Of a stretch of 40,339 nucleotides of DNA, positions 36,949-40,339 are shown one piece after another. Every line of letters starts with the position of its first letter. Positions within the stretch are counted from its first letter, which is position 1. Below the pieces are notes generated by a model. The model was not told where the DNA came from, searched no databases, and worked only from the letters and a program-made list of their open reading frames with translations. The position numbers and the translations under genes were made by a program. The stretch comes from Planctomycetaceae bacterium. GTDB lineage: Bacteria; Planctomycetota; Phycisphaerae; Sedimentisphaerales; UBA12454. Location of the stretch: assembly GCA_021371795.1 (NCBI GenBank), contig JAJFVK010000022.1:1-40339 (forward strand), read 5' to 3'.

Positions 36949-37356
36949 ATGTCAGCACCAACAATTCAAAAAAGAGAAACGTTACAAATCAAAAAGCGAG
37001 CACTTCTGGATTTACTTGAGCAGTCGCCCGGCAGGATTGAAATGCTTAACGAGCGGAACAGGGCTTTTGTGAACCTGATGCTAACGGGGCAAAAATTCCG
37101 AACTATCGCCACTGCCGCCGGCGTTCACGAGGCAACCATCGCAAGACGATTGAAAAAAATAGCCGCTCGAATCACGAACAACACTTTCGTCTGTGCCCTT
37201 TCGCAAAGAAATCTTACACCACAAAAAATGCAAATCATGCGCGATTATTTCGTCGACGGCTTTTCAATGTTCAAAATCGCCGCGAAAAATAACGTAAGCT
37301 ATTATGATGTGAGAAAATTAATCAAAGAACACATCAAAGCAAACAATGGATATTAA
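36949..37356 (+). CDS. Small protein with two helix-turn-helix segments, probable DNA-binding regulator
   Basis: This 135-residue basic protein has a strong ribosome binding site (TATGGAGGAAGCC). Two HTH-like segments are visible: about 40-75 (NRAFVNLMLTGQKFRTIATAAGVHEATIARRLKKI, like sigma-factor region 4 or recombinase HTHs) and about 100-130 (MRDYFVDGFSMFKIAAKNNVSYYDVRKLIKEHI). No sensor domain is present. The gene is divergent from the FHA protein and overlaps the end of the convergent membrane-protein gene by four bases. The role is unknown; a transcription factor or a nucleoid protein are the likely options. Confidence 0.85.
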   Translation: MSAPTIQKRETLQIKKRALLDLLEQSPGRIEMLNERNRAFVNLMLTGQKFRTIATAAGVHEATIARRLKKIAARITNNTFVCALSQRNLTPQKMQIMRDYFVDGFSMFKIAAKNNVSYYDVRKLIKEHIKANNGY

Positions 37357-38504
37357 TAAATTTTATAAAAATACCAGTTGTCTGCTAATTTTGTTTTGCT
37401 GCCTGACCAATATTCATTTTTATGAACGAGGTTTCCATAAATATGGTCCATTAATTCCACTTGCAACCATTCAACTTCACGTATTTCCTTGTCGTTAAGG
37501 CTGGACTTCAAATGCAAATGGCCATTGTCAACCAAAATTACACCATCGCGAATCAATTTGTGTAAATGTAAACATACATCAAATCCGGACAGTATTGTTG
37601 CATTACGAAACCAGAGTGTCAATCCATAACGATTAGATGTAATATTGCTATCTTCGACCAGTTTGCTTGATATTCTGGACTGGTCATTCAGGAGTTTTAC
37701 AACAACAGCCTTCTCTTCGGGTGTAAATTTACTTTCGATAAAATCGAGATATTCCTGATATTTCTCGCCATGGCCATCCAATACGGTATTCCCGTATTTA
37801 CGCATCAGATATTCATCGCAAGTTTCCATTGAAGCCAATTTGTCTGCAAATGGTTTATCTATGTATTTCATTATGACCGGATATGTGATTAGCGGATCAA
37901 AAACAATTTGGTCACGAAATTTAGCAACATCATCCTTAACTTTAATCATATCCGCAAGTTCAGCCCAAGAACGTATATCATCTTCTGTTATTACAGGACT
38001 GGTCGAATAATCTTCCGGCAAACCATTTTTCGCAAAAATATAAATTGACACTCGCCTCGAACGGTAATAACCAAATTCAACTATACCCGATTGTTTCTCA
38101 ATTCTGCGAACAACAAGTCTGTGTTTCCATGCTTCATCCTTAATTTTCTCATCATCGGTCTGTAAAAGTTTTTCCGCAATTGCAGTTAATTCTGTTTTTC
38201 GCTGCTCACTGAAATATTTTTGGGGGTATGACGGAAGATTATGCATCCCTAATCTCAACCCTGCAAAACCAAAAAGGTAAACTACAGGAAACAAAAGCAG
38301 GGAAATCAAAAAAGGTATAAAAGCAGCAAACTTATATTCGCGCCACAGTACAACAACTATAATCAAACAATATAAAGCAATGCAAATCAAAAAAAGGGAT
38401 GAAAACGCCGAAAACATAAGGTCGATATCAATGTAGCAATTAAGAAAATTAATTACGCCCAAAATCAGACCTGTAACTATAACCGTTTTTATAGTAATTC
38501 GCAT
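37353..38504 (-). CDS. AT-rich membrane protein of unknown function
   Basis: This 383-residue protein starts with three hydrophobic segments (about 7-25, 31-53 and 58-80) and continues with a soluble region of about 300 residues. No known motif was recognised. The soluble part is rich in charged residues, with YYRSRRVSIYIFAKNGLPEDYS and KEIREVEWLQVELMDHIYGNLV. Base composition is clearly more AT-rich than that of the regulators next to it, as with the HEAT gene at 2670-4025, so acquisition from elsewhere is possible. It ends within the stop region of the convergent double-HTH gene. The AT-rich 278-base gap upstream (38505-38782) holds only short repeats. Confidence 0.75.
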   Translation of the reverse strand: MRITIKTVIVTGLILGVINFLNCYIDIDLMFSAFSSLFLICIALYCLIIVVVLWREYKFAAFIPFLISLLLFPVVYLFGFAGLRLGMHNLPSYPQKYFSEQRKTELTAIAEKLLQTDDEKIKDEAWKHRLVVRRIEKQSGIVEFGYYRSRRVSIYIFAKNGLPEDYSTSPVITEDDIRSWAELADMIKVKDDVAKFRDQIVFDPLITYPVIMKYIDKPFADKLASMETCDEYLMRKYGNTVLDGHGEKYQEYLDFIESKFTPEEKAVVVKLLNDQSRISSKLVEDSNITSNRYGLTLWFRNATILSGFDVCLHLHKLIRDGVILVDNGHLHLKSSLNDKEIREVEWLQVELMDHIYGNLVHKNEYWSGSKTKLADNWYFYKIY

Positions 38505-38724
38505 TTAAGACTCCTTTTATTCTAATTATATATTTTCATAAAAGGAATGCAATGATTTTGTGAATTTTCCCCCGATGTTTAAATTTACGCGCAAGTAGTT
38601 AAATGCGCATTTTTATAAATCAAATTTTTTATCCCGTTTCAACTTATTTTAAACGCAATTTTTTAAACTCAAAAACTAATTTATCGCAAAATCGCGCAGG
38701 TTCTCTGTAATTACGGAAGACAGC

Positions 38725-38749
38725 CACAGAGCTCACAGAGGACACAGAG
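38725..38749 (+). repeat. Three tandem CACAGAG words with 9-base period
   Basis: CACAGAG at 38725, 38734 and 38743 forms a short 9-base-period array 34 bases before the ABC ATPase start. It resembles dispersed CACAGAGGACACAGAG sequences of many environmental genomes. Too short and spacer-free for CRISPR. Confidence 0.5.
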
Positions 38750-38782
38750 ATATAAAAATTTGAAATTTTTGGAAGAACAAAA

Positions 38783-39439
38783 ATGATTACGACATTAACT
38801 GCGAACAAATGTTTCAACTGGGATTTGCCGCTGACGAAAAAAGCCGGCGACGTTATGCGGGCGTTCGGCATTACCGTTCAGCGAATCAAAAACGACGCCA
38901 TCACGCACCAATGCACCATCGAACTGTCGGCTGGTCATATCTGCTACATCACCGGCCCGTCAGGCAGCGGAAAAAGCGTGCTGCTGCGGGAATTTTTCAA
39001 AAATTTCAACGATGAAAACAAAATCAACATCGATGACATCCCGCTGCCAAATGATAAAACGTGCGTCGATTGCTTCGATGGCGGGTTTCTTGAAATTTTA
39101 CGAACCTTGAGCTGTGCGGGATTAACAGACGTATTTTGCGTTCTCAATTCGCCGGCTAATTTGTCCGAAGGTCAGAAATACCGCTATCGAATCGCAAAAG
39201 CAATCGCGGGCGATAAGCAGTTTATCTTCGCTGACGAGTTCTGCTCCAACCTCGACAGAGTTACAGCAGCGGTTATCAGTCATAACCTGCGCAAGTTCGC
39301 AAGCAAGACCGGCAAAACGTTCATCCTCGCAAGCGCGCACGATGATTTGCTCGCCGATTTACTGCCGGAAGTTATCGTCATCAAACATTTGGCAGGCGAA
39401 GCGGAAATCATCTATAAAAATCTCAAATCTCAAATTTGA
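38783..39439 (+). CDS. Soluble ABC-type ATPase, partner of the following GNAT-like protein (COG2401-like)
   Basis: A 218-residue protein with a full ABC set: Walker A GPSGSGKS (58-65), signature LSEGQKYRYRIAKA (127-140), Walker B FIFADE (147-152) with D-loop SNLD (155-158), and H-loop His186. It has no membrane helix and no transporter partner, so it is not an importer or exporter. In the COG2401 family an ABC ATPase is fused to a predicted acetyltransferase; here the two are separate genes 19 bases apart. The start at 38783 has GGAAGA upstream. The cysteine cluster CVDCFDGG (94-101) replaces the usual Q-loop region, so the site may be atypical. The biochemical role is unknown. Confidence 0.87.
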   Translation: MITTLTANKCFNWDLPLTKKAGDVMRAFGITVQRIKNDAITHQCTIELSAGHICYITGPSGSGKSVLLREFFKNFNDENKINIDDIPLPNDKTCVDCFDGGFLEILRTLSCAGLTDVFCVLNSPANLSEGQKYRYRIAKAIAGDKQFIFADEFCSNLDRVTAAVISHNLRKFASKTGKTFILASAHDDLLADLLPEVIVIKHLAGEAEIIYKNLKSQI

Positions 39440-39450
39440 AATCTCAAATT
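39418..39450 (+). repeat. Short AAATCTCAAAT repeats between the ABC and GNAT genes
   Basis: AAATCTC occurs three times between 39418 and 39447, around the palindrome TCAAATTTGA. The repeats cover the last codons of the ABC gene and the gap to the next start, so the C-terminus (KNLKSQI) may have been altered by repeat growth. Confidence 0.45.
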
Positions 39451-39458
39451 GGTGGTCT

Positions 39459-40094
39459 ATGAATTGCACATTAAAAAAATATTTGAAAATCGTTCCGGGC
39501 ATAATCGCGGATTACAAAACTTTGTCTCGGTTTCATTATCGGCACTGTCAGACAGGGCCGGTGGCAGGAGTTTATAAAATCATCGATACCCATCCCATGC
39601 GTGAGCAAATCGAACCAATCGTCGGCGTTATCGTTTATTCAATGCCGGCGTGCAGCGTTCAGCTCCGCAATATCGCAACACAGGGACTTTTCACCAAGTC
39701 CGGCTCAAGCTCTGTAAATATGCAGCTGGTCAACCAGAACATTCGAACAATCTCACGGGTTGTTATCGAGCCGCGTTACAGAGCTTTGGGTCTTGCGTAT
39801 GAGCTTGTACAGCAGACAATGCCTCTGCTGAAAATAGCTTATATCGAGTCGCTTGCTGTGATGGGAAAAGTCAATCCGTTCTTCGAAAAAGCGGGAATGA
39901 TGAAATTTCAGGGCACCGAACCTGTGCGCAGCGTTAAACTGCGACAGGCATTGAGCGTTGTCGGAATCGAAGAGGACGACCTTGTCGATATCGAACTTAC
40001 GCACAGCAAAATTCAAAGTTTAAATCCGAAAGCGAAAAATTTCATCGAAAATCAGATTGTAAATTTTCTGACAGCCTACGGCAGGCACGTGTGA
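39459..40094 (+). CDS. GNAT-like acyltransferase, related to COG2401/Mom-type proteins
   Basis: The ATG at 39459 (MNCTLKKYLKIVPGI) gives 211 residues; a longer in-frame extension to 39342 overlaps the ABC gene and is rejected. Features are LSRFHYRHC (22-30), a motif seen in the ABC-acetyltransferase fusions, and ISRVVIEPRYRALGLAYELV (98-117), the acetyl-CoA-binding region with a changed last Gly. YIESLAVMGKVNPFFEKAGM follows (128-147). Phage Mu Mom, which modifies adenine in DNA, belongs to the same broad fold, so nucleic-acid modification is a possible role (inference). It follows the ABC ATPase gene in the same direction, and the two probably act together. Confidence 0.8.
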   Translation: MNCTLKKYLKIVPGIIADYKTLSRFHYRHCQTGPVAGVYKIIDTHPMREQIEPIVGVIVYSMPACSVQLRNIATQGLFTKSGSSSVNMQLVNQNIRTISRVVIEPRYRALGLAYELVQQTMPLLKIAYIESLAVMGKVNPFFEKAGMMKFQGTEPVRSVKLRQALSVVGIEEDDLVDIELTHSKIQSLNPKAKNFIENQIVNFLTAYGRHV

Positions 40095-40256
40095 AATCTG
40101 CCGGATGGCTTAAAACGCACAGAATATATCATCAGCAGACTTTCAGACAGACCCGTGTATTATCTTTGGAGAAACGCGAAACTACGATTCAAGATTGAAA
40201 ATCAGTACTGTCCCATTAACTTGAGACCTAATTAGTATAACTATTTTAGATATACA

Positions 40257-40339
40257 ATGTTACAACAAAAAACAACTGTTATCGATTTGAACGGGCTGGT
40301 ATCCTGCGGTGAGATTTTATTATCACCAATCAGGAGTAG
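40257..40339 (+). CDS. Possible start of a further gene, cut by the window end
   Basis: An ATG at 40257 opens a frame of 27 codons (MLQQKTTVIDLNGLVSCGE...) that stays open to the last base. The 162 bases between the GNAT gene and this ATG hold no other convincing gene. Upstream, ACTGTCCCATTAACTTGAGACC (40206-40227) is reminiscent of terminal repeats of some insertion sequences, so this may be a transposase start, but the other end is outside. Weakly supported. Confidence 0.3.
   Translation, partial: MLQQKTTVIDLNGLVSCGEILLSPIRS

Follow-up and report, generated by a model that had tools for sequence, protein, structure and literature searches.

A GNAT-fold gene and a permease-free ABC ATPase gene of planctomycetes, very probably parts of a phage-type DNA-packaging operon

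The stretch of DNA analysed here, called the window, is 40,339 nucleotides long and is the entire contig C22 of a planctomycete genome (G000). Near its 3′ end lie two genes, one for an ABC ATPase and one for a GNAT-fold protein, and both open reading frames are found where an earlier interpretation made from the letters alone (the sequence-only reading) had placed them. The first gene (38783..39439, + strand) encodes a transport-type cassette of 218 amino acids, which matches Pfam ABC_tran with 48 bits (cut-off 25). Its Walker A motif, GPSGSGKS (residues 58-65; 38954..38977, +), and its signature, LSEGQ (residues 127-131; 39161..39175, +), contain several residues that are invariant in the alignments, namely G58, S60, G61, G63 and K64 in the former and S128 and G130 in the latter. 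Walker B (FIFADE, residues 147-152; 39221..39238, +), read from the sequence, ends in the catalytic Glu152; D151 is invariant in alignments A2 and A7, and E152 in A7. The histidine is also present, in ASAHDD, but the canonical glutamine of the Q-loop is not obvious, the aligned position being DC in the window and DQ in phage relatives. The earlier statement that the protein has all catalytic motifs was therefore nearly, but not wholly, right. The nearest solved folds to the AF2 model (pLDDT 90.9) are transport cassettes such as FtsE, MJ0796 and HrtA (Z up to 18.7), and they also include PhnK, the soluble cassette that sits on C-P lyase. The best sequence match in the PDB is chain 8s7v_K (E 3.9e-27), titled as the A2 component of the methyl-coenzyme M reductase activation complex. 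As had been claimed, the ATPase has no membrane partner: the conserved neighbourhood of the pair contains no permease, either in the window's order or in the other loci, and for this reason a transporter reading was rejected.

Upstream of the pair lies a gene for a regulator with two HTH motifs, similar to sigma-70 region 4 and to phage late regulators (36949..37356, +), which reaches a score of 197 with the corresponding module profile (see below). A relative of this protein gives weak matches to the D5-like regulator phrog_323 and to the Q-like antiterminator phrog_79. In relatives the HTH gene is directly 5′ of the ABC gene or fused with it; in the window the two are separated by a 383-aa gene on the opposite strand (37353-38504, −), which shows a weak match to DUF4131, under the cut-off. 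A short dispersed CACAGAG-rich repeat, with more than 12 matching places in the genome, is located at 38718-38770, 5′ of the ABC gene. In two members of family f1 (L024, 9934-10641; L025, 10159-10899) the ABC gene itself carries in-frame insertions of roughly 20 residues that resemble intergenic repeat sequence.

The second gene of the pair (39459..40094, +), assigned from alignments A1, A5 and A6 and from fold matches, currently encodes 211 amino acids. Alignment with relatives places its conserved start, MNCTLKKY, at 39459; a 250-aa ORF beginning at 39342 overlaps the ABC gene and has no conservation 5′ of 39459, so that its N-terminus is 39 residues too long. The FHYR and NPFFEKAGM motifs noticed previously are both present. 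In hhalign, the HY motif (H26 Y27; 39534..39539, +) falls opposite that of Mom, the DNA adenine modification enzyme of phage Mu, and each residue of the GNAT motif (H27 and Y28 in the numbering of the relative L116) is found in 42 of the 43 sequences of A6. In NPFFEKAGM (39873..39899, +) the matching F is invariant and A and G are near-invariant. The invariant residues of the 43 GNATs, again in L116 numbering, are R70, N91, R99, R107, E129, M134, F140 and F208. The gene is truncated by an in-frame TGA (40092..40094, +), through which the profile match continues to 40193. The GNATs of relatives are about 35-36 residues longer, and alignment and profile match show that the window still encodes such a conserved end, with RPVYYLW, in frame beyond the TGA (40095..40199, +). 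The TGA could be genuine or an assembly error close to the contig end. Abutting the gene is the start of an insertion sequence (40200..40339, +), inside which the contig ends; it is 99% identical to G000:C1:17489-17628, and the contig thus breaks in a repeat just 3′ of the GNAT gene. The copy on C1 leads into a transposase-like ORF, whose assignment to a transposase family is presumptive. Given the in-frame TGA before the conserved end and the adjoining insertion sequence, the GNAT copy of the window may be decaying and losing its function.

The order was sampled with 59 genomes, including that of the window. The GNAT is found in 42 of them, the ABC ATPase in 43 and both in 41, a co-occurrence beyond chance (Fisher P 5e-11) which confirms the expected conserved pairing; the GNAT was not found in 17. 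The ABC gene is 5′ of the GNAT gene on the same strand, mostly less than 1 kb apart, in 35 of 38 genomes (37 stretches and the window); in G017, G022 and G044 the two genes are on separate contigs. Single-protein relatives, also anticipated by the sequence-only reading, do exist and are common outside the order: 19 of 40 other loci examined have both domains on one ORF, and in one such fusion (L110) the GNAT domain comes first. In the phylum sample, the GNAT is present in 64 of 392 genomes. In three genomes of family f7, DUF488 genes lie between the ABC and GNAT genes (L034 9170-9760, L042 8837-9917 and L046 9705-10313).

Neighbour clustering, followed by the construction of profiles from the clusters, defined a larger module to which the pair belongs. 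The conserved series, found in the order, in the class and in other Planctomycetota families, is: HTH regulator, ABC ATPase, GNAT, ParB-like protein, small terminase (TerS) and large terminase (TerL). The pair is consequently not a stand-alone two-gene system, as had been proposed, since it sits in a larger terminase operon. In the profile map of 41 stretches, the genes found 3′ of ABC-GNAT are ParB (27), TerS (21) and TerL (15). For a module representative, ParB_N and Terminase_6C each score over the Pfam cut-off, and the PHROG matches are 1.8e-20 for the large terminase and 3.4e-6 for the small one. The Walker A/B ATPase motifs RGGGKT and LRCDE of TerL, as well as three nuclease Asp motifs, are conserved. 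In the window's genome, ParB and TerS (C1:22190-23234) and TerL (C1:31872-33296) are all apparently intact and, in the present assembly, not adjacent to the GNAT gene. TerL is present in 46 of the 59 order genomes and is associated with the GNAT (P 6e-5); seven genomes have TerL without GNAT and three have GNAT without TerL. In family f1, TerL is about 15-45 kb away from the ABC gene. Apart from the window, copies that look broken are those of ABC and TerL in G003 and of ABC in G048; in G003 (L022, L226) the ABC gene is frameshifted, TerL is interrupted, and the module seems to be decaying.

Beyond the order, 40 loci preselected for the GNAT were read, comprising 16 of 18 matches from the class, 8 of 13 from family f33, 9 of 16 from f35, all six from other families and one order genome. 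TerL shares the strand of the GNAT gene and is at most 1.8 kb away from it in 16/16 class loci (outside the order), 8/8 f33 loci and 9/9 f35 loci, that is, in 33/33. In the six loci from other phylum families no TerL was scored by the module profiles, and one of them (L094) has a TerL-like ORF by eye. The best PHROG family of the f35 TerL differs from that of the class TerL, which argues against one frozen haplotype. A genome scan that started from TerL yielded 323 relatives; the 80 loci retained from these have titles mostly of Phycisphaerae, Phycisphaerales, Sedimentisphaerales or Planctomycetota. Among the 38 TerL loci with at least 9.5 kb upstream, this region contains the GNAT in 24, ParB in 25, TerS in 23 and ABC in 22, the GNAT being absent within 9.5 kb in the other 14. 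Of the named loci in this search, 28 have all four of ABC, GNAT, ParB and TerL, and in every one of the 28 these genes are colinear and share a strand. The parts of the module are also tied together by gene fusions, namely HTH-ABC (L023), ABC-GNAT and ParB-GNAT (L051). The ORF of L051 (7594-8532) has a ParB-like N-terminus and scores as GNAT.

The same order is annotated or can be read in mobile elements. In the phages phiK7B1 (Pseudomonas) and RHEph10 (Rhizobium), ParB-ABC-GNAT-TerL is followed by the portal gene, and in Salmonella phage SSU5 the series runs across the record ends, with TerL at the opposite end of the linear record. Plasmid pML4_1 of Acinetobacter pittii has it too, with a thioredoxin-family gene between ABC and GNAT (L262 7474-7896). 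The 24 viral contigs matched by the phiK7B1 GNAT present this order wherever the flanks are long enough; the scan of viral contigs with the window GNAT as query gave no match. GNAT matches also occur in 896 plasmid records, most of them from Klebsiella, Escherichia and Acinetobacter. Planctomycetes thus share the gene order with nickie-, RHEph10- and SSU5-type phages and with the Acinetobacter plasmid. They differ in what follows, which is a portal (phiK7B1, RHEph10) or a capsid gene (SSU5) in the phage packaging regions, whereas in the planctomycete loci read there are ordinary chromosomal genes, and no portal or capsid genes, 3′ of the module. Taken as a whole, ABC-GNAT is very probably part of a phage-type packaging operon of the form HTH late-type regulator-ABC-GNAT-ParB-like-TerS-TerL.

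With regard to inheritance, a tree of the 38 order GNATs with a profile score >150 requires four changes of family label, which is the minimum, against a mean of 20.6 and a minimum of 16 in 500 shuffles. Among f1 members, dN/dS is about 0.04-0.19 for both ABC and GNAT in the pairs that allowed dS to be computed; many pairs are saturated. The pair is therefore vertically inherited in the window's order and under purifying selection; for the terminase genes of the module, vertical inheritance is judged from the GNAT tree and not from a TerL tree. Head genes behave in a different manner. In the order, the PF05136 portal is present in 16/59 genomes, the PF04860 portal in 6/59 (four over the cut-off) and the PF05065 capsid in 10/59, in a patchy distribution that is independent of the module. 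None of the three families occurs in 22 of the 38 genomes with GNAT, ABC and TerL, among them the complete genomes G014, G019 and G023. The portal gene of the window's genome (C13:382801-383754) is on a different contig with unrelated neighbours, and a prophage at the window was rejected, ordinary genes being found around the module loci. In f35, the portal gene adjoins TerL in G422 and G207 and is close to the module in G410; moreover, in L219, L220 and L222 a portal and a protein that matches a head-protease family in the C-terminal part of that family are encoded tens of kb from the module, together with small genes that the three loci have in common. Since f35 keeps these portal and head-like genes, the ancestor of the module was probably a fuller head-and-packaging set. 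In planctomycetes, the packaging genes seem to descend with the chromosome like any of its ordinary genes, and in most cases no virus-shell genes could be detected beside them.

The GNAT fold is confirmed by structure matches to an AF2 model (pLDDT 92.7) made for the relative L116. Foldseek finds an NAT10-cytidine complex as the best match in the PDB (E 2.9e-5) and a Mom at rank 2 in BFVD (E 1.8e-5). The earlier suggestion of a relation to Mom stands as far as some resemblance is concerned, but it is not exclusive: the structural alignment to Mu Mom (8bv8_A; Z 11.9, rmsd 3.8, 148 aligned) ties with many GNATs at Z 11.5-12.5, and the nearest folds by Z include N-terminal and small-molecule acetyltransferases, so that a Mom-like chemistry is to be regarded as hypothetical. 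With hhalign, the comparison to Mom gives 16% with alignment A1, a value reached in 0/100 column shuffles, and 1.8-4.2% with A5/A6, which is suggestive at most. Both enzymes share the fold and the HY motif, and in Arthrobacter phage Martha a Mom gene is a close neighbour of ParB, as the module's GNAT gene is; however, the invariant residues differ, and no ABC gene is annotated in the flanks (600-900 bases) of ten Mom loci. The title of 8bv8 gives S124A as an inactive Mom mutant, and an equivalent of Ser124 was not found, a near-invariant serine being absent among the 43 GNATs of A6, in a comparison made at the level of the sequence alignment. When sequence profiles of the GNAT were run against solved structures, no hit to a GNAT went below E 0.11. 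An ordinary GNAT enzyme was rejected in turn, because no Pfam or NCBIfam model of an ordinary acetyltransferase family scored over its cut-off. NAT10/TmcA, the RNA cytidine acetyltransferase, likewise couples an ATPase to a GNAT on nucleic acid, although the ATPase of TmcA is of the helicase type and not an ABC cassette. The closest likeness in domains is to the COG2401 / MK0520-type ABC-acyltransferases, which have the same two domains with ABC before GNAT; the module has the ABC with Walker A, signature and Walker B next to or fused with a GNAT, its relatives include fused chains, and one phage GNAT homologue (H5) is annotated as of this type. In the window's order, in contrast, there are two separate genes inside a six-gene terminase operon, and the likeness is one of domains and annotation. 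PMC7824862 reports a prediction that a GNAT acting together with an ABC ATPase acylates a DNA base, and it describes a phage GNAT that acetylates host RNA polymerase.

These data are best explained by a domesticated, mostly capsid-less phage packaging operon in which ABC-GNAT would be the DNA-handling part. According to the mechanism that we prefer, in which a modification step guides packaging, the ABC ATPase would act as a soluble dimer whose docking partner is an enzyme instead of a permease, in the manner of PhnK and C-P lyase. It would spend ATP on loading the GNAT at, or releasing it from, sites picked with the ParB-like protein. The GNAT, a putative acyltransferase, would transfer an acyl group, with a nucleobase as the most likely acceptor, and this mark would license or block the DNA for cutting and translocation by TerS/TerL. 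In phages, the mark might distinguish viral from host DNA at the start of packaging, and planctomycetes would have retained the packaging machine for chromosomal use. Taken with its whole mechanism, this reading is about as easy to defend as to doubt.

Two live rivals deserve consideration. The first one, which we consider unlikely, is that the GNAT modifies a protein (ParB, TerL or the host polymerase) instead of DNA, the ABC protein being a regulatory ATPase. The N-terminal and small-molecule acetyltransferases that tie with Mom by Z, and the polymerase-acetylating phage GNAT already mentioned, are in its favor, but no ordinary acetyltransferase family is over the cut-off, NAT10 and a Mom are near the top of the Foldseek results, and the conserved partners in the module are, by family, DNA-binding or DNA-moving. 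The second one, with a distinctly low probability, is a gene transfer agent in which TerS/TerL and ABC-GNAT would package host DNA into particles, with the head genes elsewhere on the chromosome. Gene transfer agents also have vertically inherited terminase genes, which fits the module, and the portal and head-like genes of f35 point in the same direction. Against it are the patchy portal and capsid families and the many genomes that keep the module without them; in contrast to gene transfer agents, no consistent head gene cluster was found in the order with the three portal and capsid families, such a cluster being partly present in f35.

A defence or counter-defence pair based on DNA modification, the role proposed by the sequence-only reading, is very unlikely and is not supported here. 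The predicted acylation of DNA bases and the Mom gene of phage Martha would suit it, but the module is widespread in the order and its inheritance is vertical and congruent with the families, unlike patchy defence islands. Furthermore, the conserved module set includes no restriction gene, and PADLOC returned only generic ATPase hits for the ABC protein and none for the GNAT. There is also a slim chance that the module is a capsid-less packaging engine, in which ABC-GNAT would acylate bases of chosen chromosomal DNA and ParB/TerS/TerL would cut this DNA and drive it into the heads of resident or invading phages; if true, phage infection would become host gene transfer, or phage packaging would be spoiled. 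The preferred packaging model, with its modification step, is opposed by the weak likeness to Mom (the A5/A6 hhalign values and the Z tie with ordinary GNATs), the order genomes with only one of TerL and GNAT, the TerL loci without an upstream GNAT, the distant TerL of f1, the several broken copies and the six phylum loci without a profile-scored TerL. Finally, a slowly decaying prophage remnant without present function, which the broken copies (G000, G003, G048) and the 17 genomes in which the GNAT was not found might suggest, is hardly credible against the low dN/dS and the intact genes in several families and beyond the order.

No paper describing the operon was found in the literature searched, although Iyer 2013 and Krishnan 2020 may touch on some of its components. 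In the literature searched, the role of the ABC-GNAT family had been no more than a predicted DNA modification (PMC7824862). Its close and recurrent association with ParB and terminase, seen in phages as well as across a bacterial phylum, ties ABC-GNAT to packaging and provides a concrete genetic setting for tests. That a terminase operon should persist through vertical inheritance with no head genes beside it is puzzling, and it implies a cellular use of the packaging motor.
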